5,302 nucleotides of DNA from Bacillota bacterium (GTDB lineage Bacteria; Bacillota_A; Clostridia; Lachnospirales; WQUN01), in assembly GCA_009786175.1 (NCBI GenBank), contig WQTQ01000075.1:1-5302 (forward strand), given 5' to 3'. A program made the translations under genes and the position numbers. Every line of letters begins with the position of its first letter. Position 1 is the stretch's first letter. Below the pieces are notes generated by a model. It was not told the origin of the DNA and made no database searches. It saw nothing but the letters and a program-made list of their open reading frames with translations. This document shows positions 221 to 5,302 of this stretch, in pieces.

Positions 221-1969
221 ATGCAAGCATTCAAGTGGGCATGGCCATATGTCGCCCAATACAAAGGGCGTTTAATTTTTGGTCAATGTGTTAACATTCT
301 CAATATTTTGCTAATGCTTATCAACCCGTTTATAGCCGGGCGCATTGTGGCAGATGTTATCCAGGGCGGGTACCACGAGTTACTGCCACGGTACTTGCTA
401 ATCATGGTTAGCGTCACCCTTGTGCGCAGCATAATGCGTTATTTCTTTTTGTTGTTGTTCGAAAGCACTTCCCAAAAAATCCTGTTCAACCTGCGGCGGG
501 ATATTTACAACAAGCTACATATCCAAAATTTCCACTGGTTTGACAAAAACCGGGTTGGTGACACCATGAGCCGCATGACAGGCGACTTGGAGGCCGTTCG
601 CGGTTTTATCGCCTTCGACTCTTATGCCATACCGGAGAATATTTTGCTGTACTTTGCCGCCATTATCGCCATGGGCGTTATAAACTGGCAGCTTACTTTA
701 ATTTTGCTTGTTACAACACCGGTGGTTATTTGGGCCGCGCTAAAGCAAGCTAAGGAAATCCGCCCTACCTTCCGCGAAGTACGCGAGCAATTCTCTAACC
801 TTAACTCCACCTGCAGCGAAAATATCGGCGGCAACCGGGTGGTAAAAGCCTTCACCAAGGAAGCACACGAAATCGAAAAATTTAAGAAGGTAAACCAGGC
901 ATTTTACGACGCCAACATGGGTGCCGCAAGAGTGCGCATAAAATACTTCCCAATAATGGAGACATGCGCGTCATTACTGCCATGGCTGCTGCTTTTGTTT
1001 GGCGGCCTGATGGTAATTTGGGGCCGTATGGAGCTGTGGCAAATGATAACCATTAGCGGATATTTGTGGATGATAAATAACCCAACCCGCATGTTTACTT
1101 GGGTTGTTAACAACGTGCAAAACTGCGGTACATCCCTGGACAAAGTGTTTGAGATGATGCGCCAGCCAATTCTAATAGAAAACCCGGAAGATGCCGTGCG
1201 TACAGAGCGTATCCAAGGCGCGGTAGAGTTCCGGAACGTGTCATTCAGCTACGACTACGAAACAAATGTGCTTAAAAACATCAGCTTCCGCGCAGAGAAG
1301 GGTCAGACAATTGGGATTGTAGGCGGCACAGGCAGCGGAAAAACCACACTGATGTCATTAATAAGCCGCTTCTATGACACAACTAAGGGTGACGTGTTTG
1401 TAGACGGCGTAAACGTTAAGGATTATTATATTCCGGACTTGCGGGGGGGCATTGCCTACGCCATGCAAGACGTATTTCTATATTCCGACACTGTAGAGGG
1501 CAACATCGCCTTCGGCATACCCAACGCGCAAATGGATGTGGTATACGAAGCGGCTAAAATTGCCGATGCCCACGAGTTTATCGAAAAAATGCCCGAAGGC
1601 TACGACACAATTGTAGGTGAACGGGGCGTTGGCCTTTCCGGCGGGCAAAAGCAGCGCATATCGCTGGCCCGCGCCGTTGCCACAGAGCCGTCCATTTTAG
1701 TGCTGGACGACGTAACATCCGCCGTAGACATGGAAACAGAGCAGCGTATACAGGAAGCTTTGGCAGAAAAAGTTACAAAAAGCGGAACCGCCCGCACCAC
1801 ATTTATTGTGGCACACAGGCTTTCTTCCGTGCAGGACGCGGACCTTATTCTTGTATTGGAAAGCGGCGAAATAATAGAGCGCGGCACACACCAGCAGCTT
1901 CTTTCCAAAGGCGGTTACTACGCCCAGATGTACACAGAACAGAAGGGAGCGGTTGATTATGGCGCGTAA
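221..1969 (+). CDS. ABC half-exporter, first subunit of a heterodimer (degenerate catalytic residue)
   Basis: A 582-residue fused membrane-plus-ATPase protein of the type IV (MsbA-like) exporter fold, expected to pump drugs or lipids outward across the cell membrane with its partner downstream. About six membrane segments lie in residues 17-290 (near 17-39, 57-80, 138-155, 157-176, 250-268, 272-290). The ATPase domain has A-loop Y344, Walker A GGTGSGKT (368-375), Q-loop Q416, signature LSGGQ (472-476), Walker B ILVLDD (492-497), D-loop SAVD (500-503) and H-loop H532. The catalytic Glu after Walker B is Asp497, as in the degenerate subunits TM287 and BmrC. Length fits that family. The start is set by AGAGGAG (206-212), eight bases before ATG 221; an in-frame TTG at 182 lacks such a site and lies in the dyad. 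The exact substrate is unknown. Confidence 0.95.
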   Translation: MQAFKWAWPYVAQYKGRLIFGQCVNILNILLMLINPFIAGRIVADVIQGGYHELLPRYLLIMVSVTLVRSIMRYFFLLLFESTSQKILFNLRRDIYNKLHIQNFHWFDKNRVGDTMSRMTGDLEAVRGFIAFDSYAIPENILLYFAAIIAMGVINWQLTLILLVTTPVVIWAALKQAKEIRPTFREVREQFSNLNSTCSENIGGNRVVKAFTKEAHEIEKFKKVNQAFYDANMGAARVRIKYFPIMETCASLLPWLLLLFGGLMVIWGRMELWQMITISGYLWMINNPTRMFTWVVNNVQNCGTSLDKVFEMMRQPILIENPEDAVRTERIQGAVEFRNVSFSYDYETNVLKNISFRAEKGQTIGIVGGTGSGKTTLMSLISRFYDTTKGDVFVDGVNVKDYYIPDLRGGIAYAMQDVFLYSDTVEGNIAFGIPNAQMDVVYEAAKIADAHEFIEKMPEGYDTIVGERGVGLSGGQKQRISLARAVATEPSILVLDDVTSAVDMETEQRIQEALAEKVTKSGTARTTFIVAHRLSSVQDADLILVLESGEIIERGTHQQLLSKGGYYAQMYTEQKGAVDYGA

Positions 1970-3731
1970 CACTTTCCGTACAGACGAAGTTGTTAGAGAA
2001 GAGAGCACATTCAACCTCCAGCGGATGATGCGCTTAAATAAATATGTGCTGCCCTACCGCAGAAGTTTTATTATCACGCTTACATTCACCATAATTTCCA
2101 GCATACTTGGGCTGCTTGCCCCTATGCTAACCATGATAATTATGGATACAGCCATCCCGGAGCATGACATCCCTCTTGTACTGCTAATTGCCGGGTTTAT
2201 GCTGCTTACAATTGTGGCCAACGTATTCTTTTTGCGCTACCGCATGGACGCCATGGCTAAAGTTGGCCAGGGCATAATCCGGGACCTGCGCACAGAGTTA
2301 TTTGTCCATTTGCAGCGGCTGCCGTTCAGCTTTTTTGACAGCCGCTCCCACGGCAAAATTCTTGTGCGTGTGGTTAACTACATCAACTCCTTAAGCGACA
2401 TGCTTTCCAATGGGCTTATCAACGTAATTACAGATCTGTTTTCTCTGGTAATTATTGTTGTAATGATGCTGCTTATTAACCCACGGCTTACGCTTGTTGC
2501 CATGGCCGGTGTGCCGTTTTTGATTCTTGTGGTATTCCTCATTCGTATGAAAAACCGCAGAGCGTGGCAAATTTTCAGCGCGAAACAATCCAACCTTAAC
2601 GCATATATTCATGAAAGCATTGCCGGGGTAAAAATTACTCAGTCTTTCAACCGGGAAGCAGAAAACAAAGTTACTTTTGCAGAAGTTTCCGGCAACGTAC
2701 AGAAATCTTGGATGTACGCGGTCAAGGTTATGTTCCTTTTGTGGCCAAGTGTGGAAAACATCGGCTCCTTTGGTGTGGCGTTTTTGTATATCATAAGCGT
2801 AAGCATGATTGCCAATGAAACCCTAACCGTAGGCGTACTTGTGGCATTTGTCGCATATATCTGGCGTTTTTGGATGCCTATAAACAACATCGCCAACTTT
2901 TACAACGTGCTTGTAACAAACATGGCCAACCTGGAGCTTATTTTCGAGACAATTGATGAACCGGTACTGGTAAAAGATAAGCCCGACGCCGTAGACATGC
3001 CGCAAATTAAGGGCGATGTGGAGTTCAAAGATGTGGCATTCGGCTATGAAGAAGGGCAGACTATTTTGGATGGCGTAAGCTTCAAGTGCAAAACCGGGGA
3101 TTCTGTTGCGCTGGTTGGCCCAACAGGCGCGGGCAAAACCACAGTGGTAAACTTAATCAGCCGCTTTTACGAGATTAACAGCGGCCAAGTGCTAATTGAC
3201 GGCTTTGACATAAGCAACGCAAAACTTGCTTCCCTGCGCAGCCAAATGGGAATAATGCTGCAAGACAGCTTCTTATTTTCCGGCACAATAATGGACAATA
3301 TCCGCTACAGCCGCCTGGATGCCACAGACGAAGAGGTAATGGAGGCGGCAAAGGCCGTTTGCGCCCACGAATTTATTATGGAAATGGAAGACGGGTACAA
3401 AACAGAGGTTAACGAACGCGGCAGCAGACTATCCGTTGGCCAGCGGCAGCTTATATCCTTTGCCCGCGCCTTGCTTGCCGACCCTCGCATATTAATACTG
3501 GACGAAGCAACATCCAACATCGACACCCGCACGGAAAAAGCCCTGCAAGAAGGCTTAAACCGCCTGCTGCAAGGGCGTACGTCATTCATAATCGCCCACA
3601 GGCTTTCCACCATTCAGCACGCAGATAAAATTATGTACGTAGACAAAGGAAACATTGCCGAGTCCGGCAATCACGCGGAATTAATGGCGTTAAAAGGCGA
3701 GTATTACAACCTTGTAATGGCACAGATGTGA
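1959..3731 (+). CDS. ABC half-exporter, second subunit of the heterodimer (catalytically competent)
   Basis: A 590-residue partner with the same membrane-plus-ATPase layout: about six membrane segments in residues 34-307 (near 34-58, 72-93, 152-173, 177-197, 254-285, 290-307). The ATPase domain has A-loop Y363, Walker A GPTGAGKT (387-394), Q-loop Q435, Walker B ILILDE (511-516) with catalytic Glu516, and H-loop H547. Its signature is LSVGQ (491-495) instead of LSGGQ. Paired with Asp497 of the first subunit, this makes one degenerate ATP site, while Glu516 here and LSGGQ of the partner make the active one. This is the known design of heterodimeric exporters (BmrCD, LmrCD, TM287/288). AAGGGAG (1943-1949) lies nine bases before ATG 1959; the in-frame TTG at 1953 would be too close. 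It overlaps the first gene by 11 bases, implying coupled translation and equal subunit supply. Confidence 0.95.
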   Translation: MARNTFRTDEVVREESTFNLQRMMRLNKYVLPYRRSFIITLTFTIISSILGLLAPMLTMIIMDTAIPEHDIPLVLLIAGFMLLTIVANVFFLRYRMDAMAKVGQGIIRDLRTELFVHLQRLPFSFFDSRSHGKILVRVVNYINSLSDMLSNGLINVITDLFSLVIIVVMMLLINPRLTLVAMAGVPFLILVVFLIRMKNRRAWQIFSAKQSNLNAYIHESIAGVKITQSFNREAENKVTFAEVSGNVQKSWMYAVKVMFLLWPSVENIGSFGVAFLYIISVSMIANETLTVGVLVAFVAYIWRFWMPINNIANFYNVLVTNMANLELIFETIDEPVLVKDKPDAVDMPQIKGDVEFKDVAFGYEEGQTILDGVSFKCKTGDSVALVGPTGAGKTTVVNLISRFYEINSGQVLIDGFDISNAKLASLRSQMGIMLQDSFLFSGTIMDNIRYSRLDATDEEVMEAAKAVCAHEFIMEMEDGYKTEVNERGSRLSVGQRQLISFARALLADPRILILDEATSNIDTRTEKALQEGLNRLLQGRTSFIIAHRLSTIQHADKIMYVDKGNIAESGNHAELMALKGEYYNLVMAQM

Positions 3732-3813
3732 GAAATGCCTCGTTTTGCAAGCGCAAGCGAAGCAATCCAGTGACTTTAAGCTACCATTCAACTCCAATGA
3801 GGTCTAATAAAAT
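3732..3813 (+). other. 82-base gap between exporter and methyltransferase, no clear terminator
   Basis: No stem followed by a T-run is visible, nor a convincing promoter (TTGCAA at 3745-3750 has no good -10 partner). A short direct repeat of GCAAGCG lies at about 3747-3759. GAGG at 3799-3802 is the likely ribosome site for the next gene, with an 11-base spacing that is slightly long. Read-through from the exporter genes is therefore plausible but unproven. Confidence 0.4.
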
Positions 3814-4629
3814 ATGATAACGGAAACCCAAGTAAATAAAATGGTCGAAAAAATCCTAAAAATGTCTAAGTACAAAGAGGTTTCAATTCCCCCGGAGACG
3901 CTTCAATCCGTAATTGAAATGTCTCTGCCCCTGTCCAAAAACATCGCCGAACTGGAAAAACGGGTACGGGAGAAAATTCACAATATTGTTGCATTGTACT
4001 TGGGGGAAATGGATTACGAAAAAGCAGTTGACGAGTTTAGGCAGGTAAAGAATAACTGCCAGTTACTAAAAGAATTTTCTGCCCGGGCATTAATGGCTCA
4101 CGCCTCAACAAAAGAGCGAGGGCAAGAGCTGGCGGAATTTTATCAAGTTTTATTCAGCCGCATAGGCAATATGCAAAGCATTGCCGATTTAGCTTGCGGT
4201 TTACACCCTTTGGGGCTGCCGTTTATGGGTTTGCCATCGGACACAGCCTACTATGCCTACGATTTAAATAAAGCGCGGGCAGATTTTATAAACATTTTTA
4301 TAACGGAGCAAGGGTACAGCGGCGGATGTTTCCACGAGGATATTCTTACAAACCCGCCCCCGGAAGAGTTTGACGCAGCGTTTTTCTTCAAAGAAGCCCA
4401 CCGGTTTGAAAAACGTGAGCCAGGTGTTTTGCCAAACTTTTTTGACAGTGTAAAAGCACATAAAATTGTGGTTTCCGTACCGCTGCAAAGCTTTGGAACC
4501 CATTGCGAGATTTACAAAAAGTATGAGAAAATATTTTGTGAGTACGCTGAAAAGCGCAACCTTCATTTGGAAAACTTTTTCCATGGCAATGAAGTATTTT
4601 TTATTATCGATAGGAGCAGCACACAATGA
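3814..4629 (+). CDS. ArmA/Rmt/FmrO-type 16S rRNA methyltransferase homologue, divergent (putative aminoglycoside resistance)
   Basis: The 271-residue product resembles the SAM-dependent enzymes that N7-methylate G1405 in the 16S rRNA A site and block 4,6-disubstituted deoxystreptamine aminoglycosides (ArmA 257, RmtB 251, Sgm 274 residues). A helical N-terminal domain (about 1-90, with VEKILKMSKY aligning to the ArmA start) is followed by HASTKER (96-102), the family's HxSTxER motif; SAM motif I DLACGLHPLGL (125-135); AYDLNK (148-153) with Asp150 as likely ribose ligand; FFFK ending at Lys193; VSVPLQSF (220-227); and GNEVFFII (258-265). Oddities against ArmA/RmtB as I recall them: His131 where CGxNP has Asn, Gln225 where FPxK/RSL has a base, and no GxxxKGM loop afterwards. 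Fold and family are secure; the exact target nucleotide is not. The gene follows the exporter pair in the same direction. A Met at residue 10 is an alternative start. Confidence 0.85.
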   Translation: MITETQVNKMVEKILKMSKYKEVSIPPETLQSVIEMSLPLSKNIAELEKRVREKIHNIVALYLGEMDYEKAVDEFRQVKNNCQLLKEFSARALMAHASTKERGQELAEFYQVLFSRIGNMQSIADLACGLHPLGLPFMGLPSDTAYYAYDLNKARADFINIFITEQGYSGGCFHEDILTNPPPEEFDAAFFFKEAHRFEKREPGVLPNFFDSVKAHKIVVSVPLQSFGTHCEIYKKYEKIFCEYAEKRNLHLENFFHGNEVFFIIDRSSTQ

Positions 4630-4769
4630 TTAATGAATTTCTTAACACATGTTTACCTACGAGACTGAAATTACACCCTAAACCAACCACCAATACACCT
4701 GCTCAAAAAACAGCCCTGCCACGCCCCACGCGGGCAAATAATCAAACCGCACAACGCCGCGTACGCTAA
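4612..4769 (+). pseudogene. Coupled start of a lost downstream gene (AGGAG plus ATGA overlap)
   Basis: AGGAG (4612-4616) stands nine bases before an ATG (4626-4628) that overlaps the methyltransferase stop as ATGA, a standard sign of a translationally coupled next gene. The frame begins MINEFLNTCLPTRLK but passes the convergent membrane gene's stop at 4678 after 17 codons. From there it is antisense to that gene, low in complexity, and ends at TAA 4767-4769 (47 residues in all). The likeliest reading is the remnant of a gene cut off by recombination near 4660-4680. It could also be a genuine tiny peptide, or a chance start. I do not recognise the residues. Confidence 0.4.
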
Positions 4770-5064
4770 ATCGGGTGTGGCTGTAATCCCACGGGCAAAT
4801 GTCGGCCCGTTTCAGCAGCGTGCCCGTCATAAATTCGCCAAACAGTATAAAAGACGCATAAATTAGCCCCCGCAGCAGAAAATTAACAGGGGCTAAAAAC
4901 CTAAAAACCGGTTCCAGCACAACAACCGACCCGTAGATAAAAAACATCCACAGGCTGGTTTTGCTGGTCAGTGTAAAATTTTTATTTATCAACGAGCCAA
5001 GACCCGTCCAAAATACTTCCATCAAGCAGCCTATTGCGCCATAAATAATAAATCGCGTAATCAT
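4678..5064 (-). CDS. ABC_trans_CmpB-family (PF06541) small integral membrane protein
   Basis: A 128-residue membrane protein with about four hydrophobic segments (2-21, 37-57, 62-84, 109-128). The motifs match the family Pfam calls putative ABC-transporter type IV: IYGAIGCLMEV near the N-terminus, TSLWMFFIYG (36-45), LLRGLIY (63-69), CPWDYS (90-95), and RFDYLPAW (106-113). Despite the name, no member's transport role is assured, so function stays unknown. The frame is open further upstream to an ATG at 5229, but the ATG at 5064 is preferred because family members begin directly with this hydrophobic segment and the extra 55 codons overlap the end of another gene. The ribosome site is weak. 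It lies 64 bases after the upstream minus-strand gene, so the two may be co-transcribed. It converges on the methyltransferase gene, 48 bases apart. Confidence 0.85.
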   Translation of the reverse strand: MITRFIIYGAIGCLMEVFWTGLGSLINKNFTLTSKTSLWMFFIYGSVVVLEPVFRFLAPVNFLLRGLIYASFILFGEFMTGTLLKRADICPWDYSHTRFSVRGVVRFDYLPAWGVAGLFFEQVYWWLV

Positions 5065-5103
5065 AAACGCAGTATGCCCAGGAAAAAAATATCCATACGC
5101 CAC

Positions 5104-5130
5104 AATGGGGGTTAAGCCCCATTTTTGTTT
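5104..5130 (+). terminator. Hairpin with T-tract, terminator-like on the plus strand
   Basis: AATGGGG (5104-5110), loop GTTAAG, and CCCCATT (5117-5123) form a perfect 7-bp stem whose plus-strand copy continues into TTTGTTT. On the minus strand it begins five bases after the stop of the partial gene but is followed by TGTGGCG, not T; a T-run comes about 14 bases later. So the best terminator orientation is plus, where the only upstream gene is the methyltransferase 475 bases away. It may act in both directions or be an intergenic hairpin before the CmpB gene. Confidence 0.45.
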
Positions 5131-5302
5131 ACCTCCACCAAATCTCCCCATCGGGGCCTGTCCAGAGGCGTATGGCGGTTGTTTCTGTTTCAAGCGGCTG
5201 TACAAAATCAATATAACGTATGCCGTCACGCATGGTTAGTACCACTCCCGCGCCTGCCGCACCTGTGGCACTTACAACAAACACCGTACGACCTTCTTCG
5301 TA
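5129..5302 (-). CDS. 3' end of an unrecognised gene (partial, 57 residues visible)
   Basis: From the right window edge a frame stays open for 57 codons to TAA at 5131-5129. The composition is protein-like: TVFVVSATGAAGAG near its beginning, a middle DGIRYIDFVQPLE, and a C-terminus of LWTGPDGEIWWR. Beta-strand-like alternation and the final tryptophan-rich stretch suggest a soluble or exported domain, but I do not recognise the family. Its start lies outside the window. It is chosen over the overlapping frame that extends the CmpB gene upstream, since that frame here reads as a glycine- and proline-rich sequence with no resemblance to the family. It precedes the CmpB gene in the same direction. 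Confidence 0.65.
   Translation of the reverse strand, partial: YEEGRTVFVVSATGAAGAGVVLTMRDGIRYIDFVQPLETETTAIRLWTGPDGEIWWR

Follow-up and report, generated by a model that had tools for sequence, protein, structure and literature searches.

The gene and its predicted protein

The window analysed here is a whole stretch of 5,302 nucleotides (5.3 kb) from contig WQTQ01000075.1 of a Bacillota bacterium (assembly GCA_009786175.1), and the gene under study lies on its plus strand and encodes a predicted methyltransferase of the FmrO superfamily. An earlier note on this DNA had described the product as a divergent ArmA/Rmt-like enzyme acting on G1405 of 16S rRNA in a Clostridia-like setting, and had proposed that it could be a reservoir or an ancestral branch of such enzymes. 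We found that the superfamily divides into two groups, group I with the known (canonical) enzymes and group II with the window protein. As judged from the sequences, group II appears to be an undescribed sister subfamily of the Arm/Rmt/Sgm 16S rRNA G1405 enzymes, with a rebuilt active site. The gene and its features are:

3799..3802, plus strand: GAGG, possible ribosome-binding site, 11 bases upstream of the ATG, read from the sequence
3814..4629, plus strand: group II FmrO-superfamily methyltransferase gene, ATG start, 271 amino acids
4099..4119, plus strand: HASTKER, residues 96-102, conserved in groups I and II
4186..4209, plus strand: S-adenosylmethionine (SAM) motif I DLACGLHP, residues 125-132, D125 conserved
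4390..4416, plus strand: KEAHRFEKR, group II motif, residues 193-201 (canonical enzymes have K-x-x-P there)
4477..4524, plus strand: VPLQSFGTHCEIYKKY, altered target-site loop, residues 222-237 (the canonical FPxKSLGGRxxGMxxxY is longer by one residue)

The open reading frame (ORF) has exactly the limits given in the earlier note, and the motifs quoted there are all present, including AYDLNK (residues 148-153) and GNEVFFII (residues 258-265). The KEAHRFEKR motif directly follows the strand formed by residues 186-192 of the predicted model.

Membership of the superfamily is well founded: the protein matches the FmrO profile PF07091 at 4.3e-33 (115.2 bits against a curated cut-off of 27) and the solved Sgm sequence at 1.3e-24, both far above chance, and the sequences of solved Rmt and ArmA enzymes are matched as well. 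The profile search proposed in the earlier note placed the protein above the FmrO cut-off and below those of all NCBIfam Rmt models, the best of which, the G1405 N7-methyltransferase equivalog NF000466, reached 149.8 bits against 250. The predicted fold is that of the FmrO superfamily, with an N-terminal helical domain and a Rossmann domain; over its full length it is the same as in the 16S enzymes, and its N-terminal domain, which in known members docks the 30S subunit, aligns with theirs. A dead copy was considered and rejected, as the core residues are retained.

Among 5.8 billion proteins, 718 homologues were found at E <= 1e-3. In the 120 matches listed, the nearest named homologues come from Defluviitaleaceae metagenome-assembled genomes (MAGs), and several group II relatives carry the automatic name '16S rRNA (guanine(1405)-N(7))-methyltransferase', which is probably wrong for this branch. 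Among the matches listed by a search of the open-licence literature, nothing dealt with Chloroflexota enzymes of the FmrO type or with the group II branch.

Two groups within the superfamily

The alignment contains 439 superfamily rows, 233 of group I (including Sgm, ArmA, RmtB, RmtC, RmtD and RmtF) and 206 of group II (including the window). Superfamily ORFs below 200 amino acids (from 209), rows labelled P outside 230-345 amino acids and 2 of the 441 domain rows with fewer than 190 residues were dropped. The rows contain repeats of genes fetched twice (for example L015 and L087); below 80% identity they correspond to 148 of group II and 162 of group I.

The target-site loop, whose residues position the target base, reads SFPxKSLGGRxxGMxxxY in group I, with the Gly in 232/233 rows and the Met in 226/233. 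In group II, the Gly is missing from all 206 rows and Met occupies the Met column in 32; the window has a gap at the Gly column and Ile at the Met position. These loop counts are partly circular because the groups were assigned by the loop itself (P0235, which lacks the loop Gly, was counted in group I on its tree position). Independent of this assignment are the trees and residues E194, R197 and R201, which are present in 206/206 group II rows and in 0/233 of group I. Similarly, R155 is found in every group II row and in a single row of group I. K193, which these residues flank, is shared by both groups (205/206 in group II, P0080 having Q, and 233/233 in group I), and the position after K-x-x is P in 229/233 group I rows and H in 200/206 of group II. 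The remaining core residues are common property: H96, E101 and R102 are found in all group II rows and in 233, 232 and 233 of the 233 group I rows respectively, D125 in 206/206 and 232/233, and D150 in all 206 group II rows.

In a 108-row IQ-TREE analysis from which both diagnostic stretches had been removed, group II forms one clade (support 100/99), and in a larger FastTree analysis one branch separates all 206 group II rows from the rest (support 1.0). With a group II profile from which its own clade had been left out, the window protein reaches 288 bits, compared with 191 bits for the group I profile. The tree suggested in the earlier note was thus obtained for ArmA, RmtB, RmtC, RmtD, RmtF and Sgm, with the window apart from them; RmtA, RmtE, RmtG, RmtH and Kmr were left out. 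A class-wide search yielded 14 group II rows, 3 of which also belong to the set of 206 (two short G224 fragments of group II type were set aside). All have K-E-x-x-R and 13 have the one-residue loop deletion, the remaining row ending before the loop; some retain SGRR there and show other residues at H196 and R201. The divergence claimed in the earlier note is therefore borne out by the profile scores and the trees; the assignment to ArmA/Rmt-like G1405 enzymes finds no support, given the missed Rmt cut-off, the separate grouping and the loss of the canonical loop.

Gene order, distribution and host

An alignment search of public genomes with group II gave 107 confirmed stretches, the best 80 of which were used: one locus of a Defluviitaleaceae MAG, and 79 whose titles name Chloroflexi or Anaerolineae kinds. 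In 69 of these 79 Chloroflexota loci the group II gene is preceded by a group I gene on the same strand, and 3 more have an unclassified piece of the superfamily. A 4-base overlap with the group II gene was seen for 44 of the 73 ORFs upstream (the start codon being chosen by script), and four lie about 2.5 kb away. Where there was room, tgt is found directly upstream in 62/67 Chloroflexota loci and an RsmF-like gene directly downstream in 73/74; RsmE-type and RsmI-type genes occur in 49/79 and 44/79 loci (gene identities were taken from one representative each). PMC4119055 gives C1407, U1498 and C1402 as the E. coli targets of RsmF, RsmE and RsmI. Next to superfamily genes elsewhere, tgt was found in 13/20 loci (L089-L108) of the family of the Defluviitaleaceae MAG G001, in 7/10 loci of the class search and in 6/6 Bacillota loci (L119-L124). 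G001, the only fetched relative in the window's branch to have a genome, has the order RsmI-type, tgt, group I. At locus L001, a SPOUT methyltransferase gene (PF02590) adjoins the group II gene on the opposite strand. In Chloroflexota group II mostly follows group I, with tgt and an RsmF-like gene in the same cluster, and the canonical genes of Bacillota often adjoin tgt; this linkage suggests native ribosome modification and not acquired resistance.

FmrO matches were found in 20/38 genomes of the family of G001 and 23/295 of its order, and matches over the cut-off in 7/398 across its phylum, G001 included. Within that order G001, with one gene of each group, was alone in having a group II-like score (431 bits; others at most 158). 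In the class of Bellilinea (G002), 62/249 genomes have an FmrO match and, by profile score, 47 have group I only, 14 both groups and 1 group II only (the entry for G224 among the 14 is based on fragments). As 14 of the 15 genomes with group II also have group I, group II hardly occurs without group I in this sample. In the same sample an RsmF-type match is present in 4/47 genomes with group I only, 10/15 with group II and 68/187 without FmrO; the difference between the first two has p 1.9e-5, with kinship ignored and draft genomes used.

Ten genomes were searched for 16S genes, and the four full-length genes found all have the G1405 sequence. Helix 44 of these four readable hosts (L236-L239) reads CCGCCCGTCACGTCA, and that of E. 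coli CCGCCCGTCACACCA; the two differ just after position 1409.

The window protein falls in a 22-row clade (100/99) nested within other group II rows in the IQ-TREE analysis, so the window gene looks derived, and the ancestral branch proposed in the earlier note is not shown. The test was not decisive: holding the other 41 group II rows together was 33 log units worse and was not rejected (approximately unbiased (AU) test, p = 0.080). The taxon is known for L001 within the clade and for the rows labelled L outside it, rows labelled P being assigned to a Bacillota or Chloroflexota side by tree place. The nesting thus favours, and the p of 0.080 leaves unproven, transfer of the window copy into a Bacillota host, with a Chloroflexota-like bacterium as donor.

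The other genes of the window are:

221..1969, plus strand: ATP-binding cassette (ABC) exporter subunit 1, PF00664 and PF00005; neighbour, outside the system
1959..3731, plus strand: ABC exporter subunit 2, PF00664 and PF00005; neighbour, outside the system
4678-5229, minus strand: ORF of 183 amino acids, PF06541 (putative ABC-transporter type IV), 7e-9
minus strand: partial ORF without match

The two exporter genes (221-3731) overlap. The 15 best places of the subunit 2 protein among the 295 genomes of the order are all in the family of G001 (59-77% identity), the best match outside that family reaching 60% and the closest copy in G001 itself 37%. Since these matches centre on the family of G001, the window most likely comes from related Bacillota, in agreement with the Clostridia-like setting described in the earlier note; a termite-gut habitat of such hosts is presumed from the name of the MAG. 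Homologues of subunits 1 (69-74%) and 2 (74-77%) occur in the same six genomes of this family, and the methyltransferase gene was not found in the stretches fetched from them. The exporter pair, having no evident link to the methyltransferase, was for this reason rejected as a functional partner. A scan of the five ORFs for mobile context gave the ABC exporters, PF06541, the methyltransferase and one ORF without match. Promoter and terminator scans of the window gave 3 and 7 sites, against 2.9 expected in each case, and nothing was concluded from them.

Interpretation and comparison with known enzymes

Considered as a whole, these sequence comparisons are on balance best explained if the product of the window gene is an active RNA methyltransferase of class I, SAM-dependent and of group II, that acts on the decoding region of the small subunit with a target or role other than the canonical one. 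Group II enzymes would methylate rRNA of the small subunit within helix 44 or close to it; they would probably act on a nucleotide other than G1405, or else on a subunit on which the group I enzyme has already worked, and would serve the normal modification of ribosomes and not drug resistance. The Bacillota host of the window copy would have received such a gene from its probable Chloroflexota-like donor.

Several points weigh against this interpretation. (i) The literature search gave no biochemistry for any group II protein, so the substrate is one that we infer. (ii) Gene neighbourhood indicates a shared process and not a target nucleotide. (iii) No group I gene is seen upstream in 7/79 loci, at least 3 of which (L036, L038 and L056) start too near a contig edge to show one; in G001 the group II gene and the group I gene, the latter with tgt and the RsmI-type gene, lie on different contigs; and the window copy lies away from any such cluster. 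(iv) The canonical loop residues (K236, G240-R241 and G244-M245) were named by position count in RmtC, and their base-positioning role is taken from general background. (v) The family of G001 does not repeat the RsmF contrast of the class sample: an RsmF-type match (E <= 1e-3) is found there in 19/20 genomes with FmrO (18 over the cut-off) and in 16/18 without. (vi) At 276 bits against the RsmF cut-off of 588 (representative L048), the cluster's RsmF-like gene is divergent, which makes C1407 uncertain as its target.

It is unlikely, although worth retaining, that group II proteins are still G1405 N7-methyltransferases with a different base-positioning loop, conferring resistance to 4,6-linked aminoglycosides like ArmA/Rmt. 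The full-length fold, the SAM site and HxSTxER are the same in both groups and every 16S gene read has the G1405 sequence, but the loop Gly is lost throughout group II and the canonical P is mostly replaced by H; moreover, most hosts encode a canonical enzyme nearby or elsewhere, so a second one would be redundant. We regard as rather improbable a role as partner subunit of the group I enzyme (heterodimer or relay), serving mainly recognition or regulation. The order I then II, the frequent 4-base overlap and the co-occurrence of both groups in the class sample and in G001 would fit such a partner; it is opposed by the retention in group II of SAM-site residues, which helper paralogues often lose, by the ability of known G1405 enzymes to bind 30S alone, by the L001 gene, which is unlinked from group I, and by the window, in whose 5.3 kb no group I gene was found. 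Modification of another RNA, such as the tRNA anticodon region or 23S rRNA, is very improbable: the gene that usually precedes the pair in Chloroflexota, tgt, is for an enzyme of the tRNA wobble base, and a SPOUT methyltransferase gene lies beside the L001 gene, but the N-terminal domain can be aligned with the one found in 16S enzymes, and the RsmF-like, RsmE-type and RsmI-type members of the cluster belong to 16S enzyme families.

Returning to a decoding-region enzyme with another target, a more specific proposal can tentatively be made, which is possible but short of probable. Group II would be a second native decoding-centre methyltransferase for a nucleotide other than G1405. In Anaerolineaceae-type Chloroflexota it would belong to a helix 44 cluster made up of tgt, group I, group II and the RsmF-like gene, RsmE and RsmI frequently lying close by, and this cluster would allow m7G1405 and m5C1407 to be present together; Bacillota like the host of the window would have acquired group II on its own. 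According to PMC12406665, RsmF is hindered at C1407 by G1405 enzymes; a possible contribution of group II to the coexistence of the two modifications is a lead, no more. If the proposal holds, m7G1405 would be a housekeeping modification in whole lineages, and the clinical rmtD and rmtG, still with a tgt-type neighbour, would descend from such clusters. PMC9311965 and PMC12340973 describe G1405 enzymes as self-protection of aminoglycoside producers, acquired by pathogens; here the superfamily is found in ribosome-maintenance gene clusters of Chloroflexota and Bacillota. The origin of the clinical enzymes thereby becomes testable, as does native m7G1405, or a new nearby modification, in some ribosomes.

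A phage or plasmid origin of the window gene was rejected on the plasmid, phage and viral records searched. No close relative was found on plasmids (1572 records matched, all below 60% identity, 24-38% among the 30 listed), phage records gave two partial matches at 29% identity, and of 27 viral stretches with a pattern none was confirmed. Two records labelled Acinetobacter phage MD-2021a (H31 and H32) hold an FmrO-annotated gene, with a match equal in span and identity to the ArmA matches on plasmids. The reservoir idea accordingly finds no support for the window gene and is better suited to the canonical genes, separate from it, that related bacteria carry. The Bacillota group I genes of the family of G001 group with ArmA (0.85, FastTree) or with ArmA and RmtC (93/80, IQ-TREE), a kinship that is unsure because ArmA and RmtC are very long branches. 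On a plasmid (L127:1-959), tgt lies 18 bases upstream of rmtD2, and for rmtG PMC3904158 reports a putative tRNA ribosyltransferase gene immediately upstream; both may be traces of a chromosomal cluster. The plasmid pieces retrieved for rmtF1, rmtB1, armA and rmtC, whose flanks are short, showed no tgt.

Of the known enzymes nearest to the window protein, Sgm of an aminoglycoside producer (PDB 3lcu/3lcv) has FPTKSLGQRSKGMFQNY and KTLPCLE where the window protein has VPLQSFGTHCEIYKKY and KEAHRFE. The acquired G1405 enzymes RmtB, RmtC, RmtD, RmtF and ArmA belong to the same superfamily (23-28% identity), but they form a clade separate from that of the window, possess the loop Gly-Met that the window protein has lost, and are plasmid-borne, whereas no close relative of the window gene was found on plasmids. 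Finally, the chromosomal-type group I genes of Chloroflexota and Bacillota occur in the same or related bacteria as group II, both groups being possible in one genome; they have kept the canonical loop and are nearer kin of ArmA/Rmt/Sgm than group II is.
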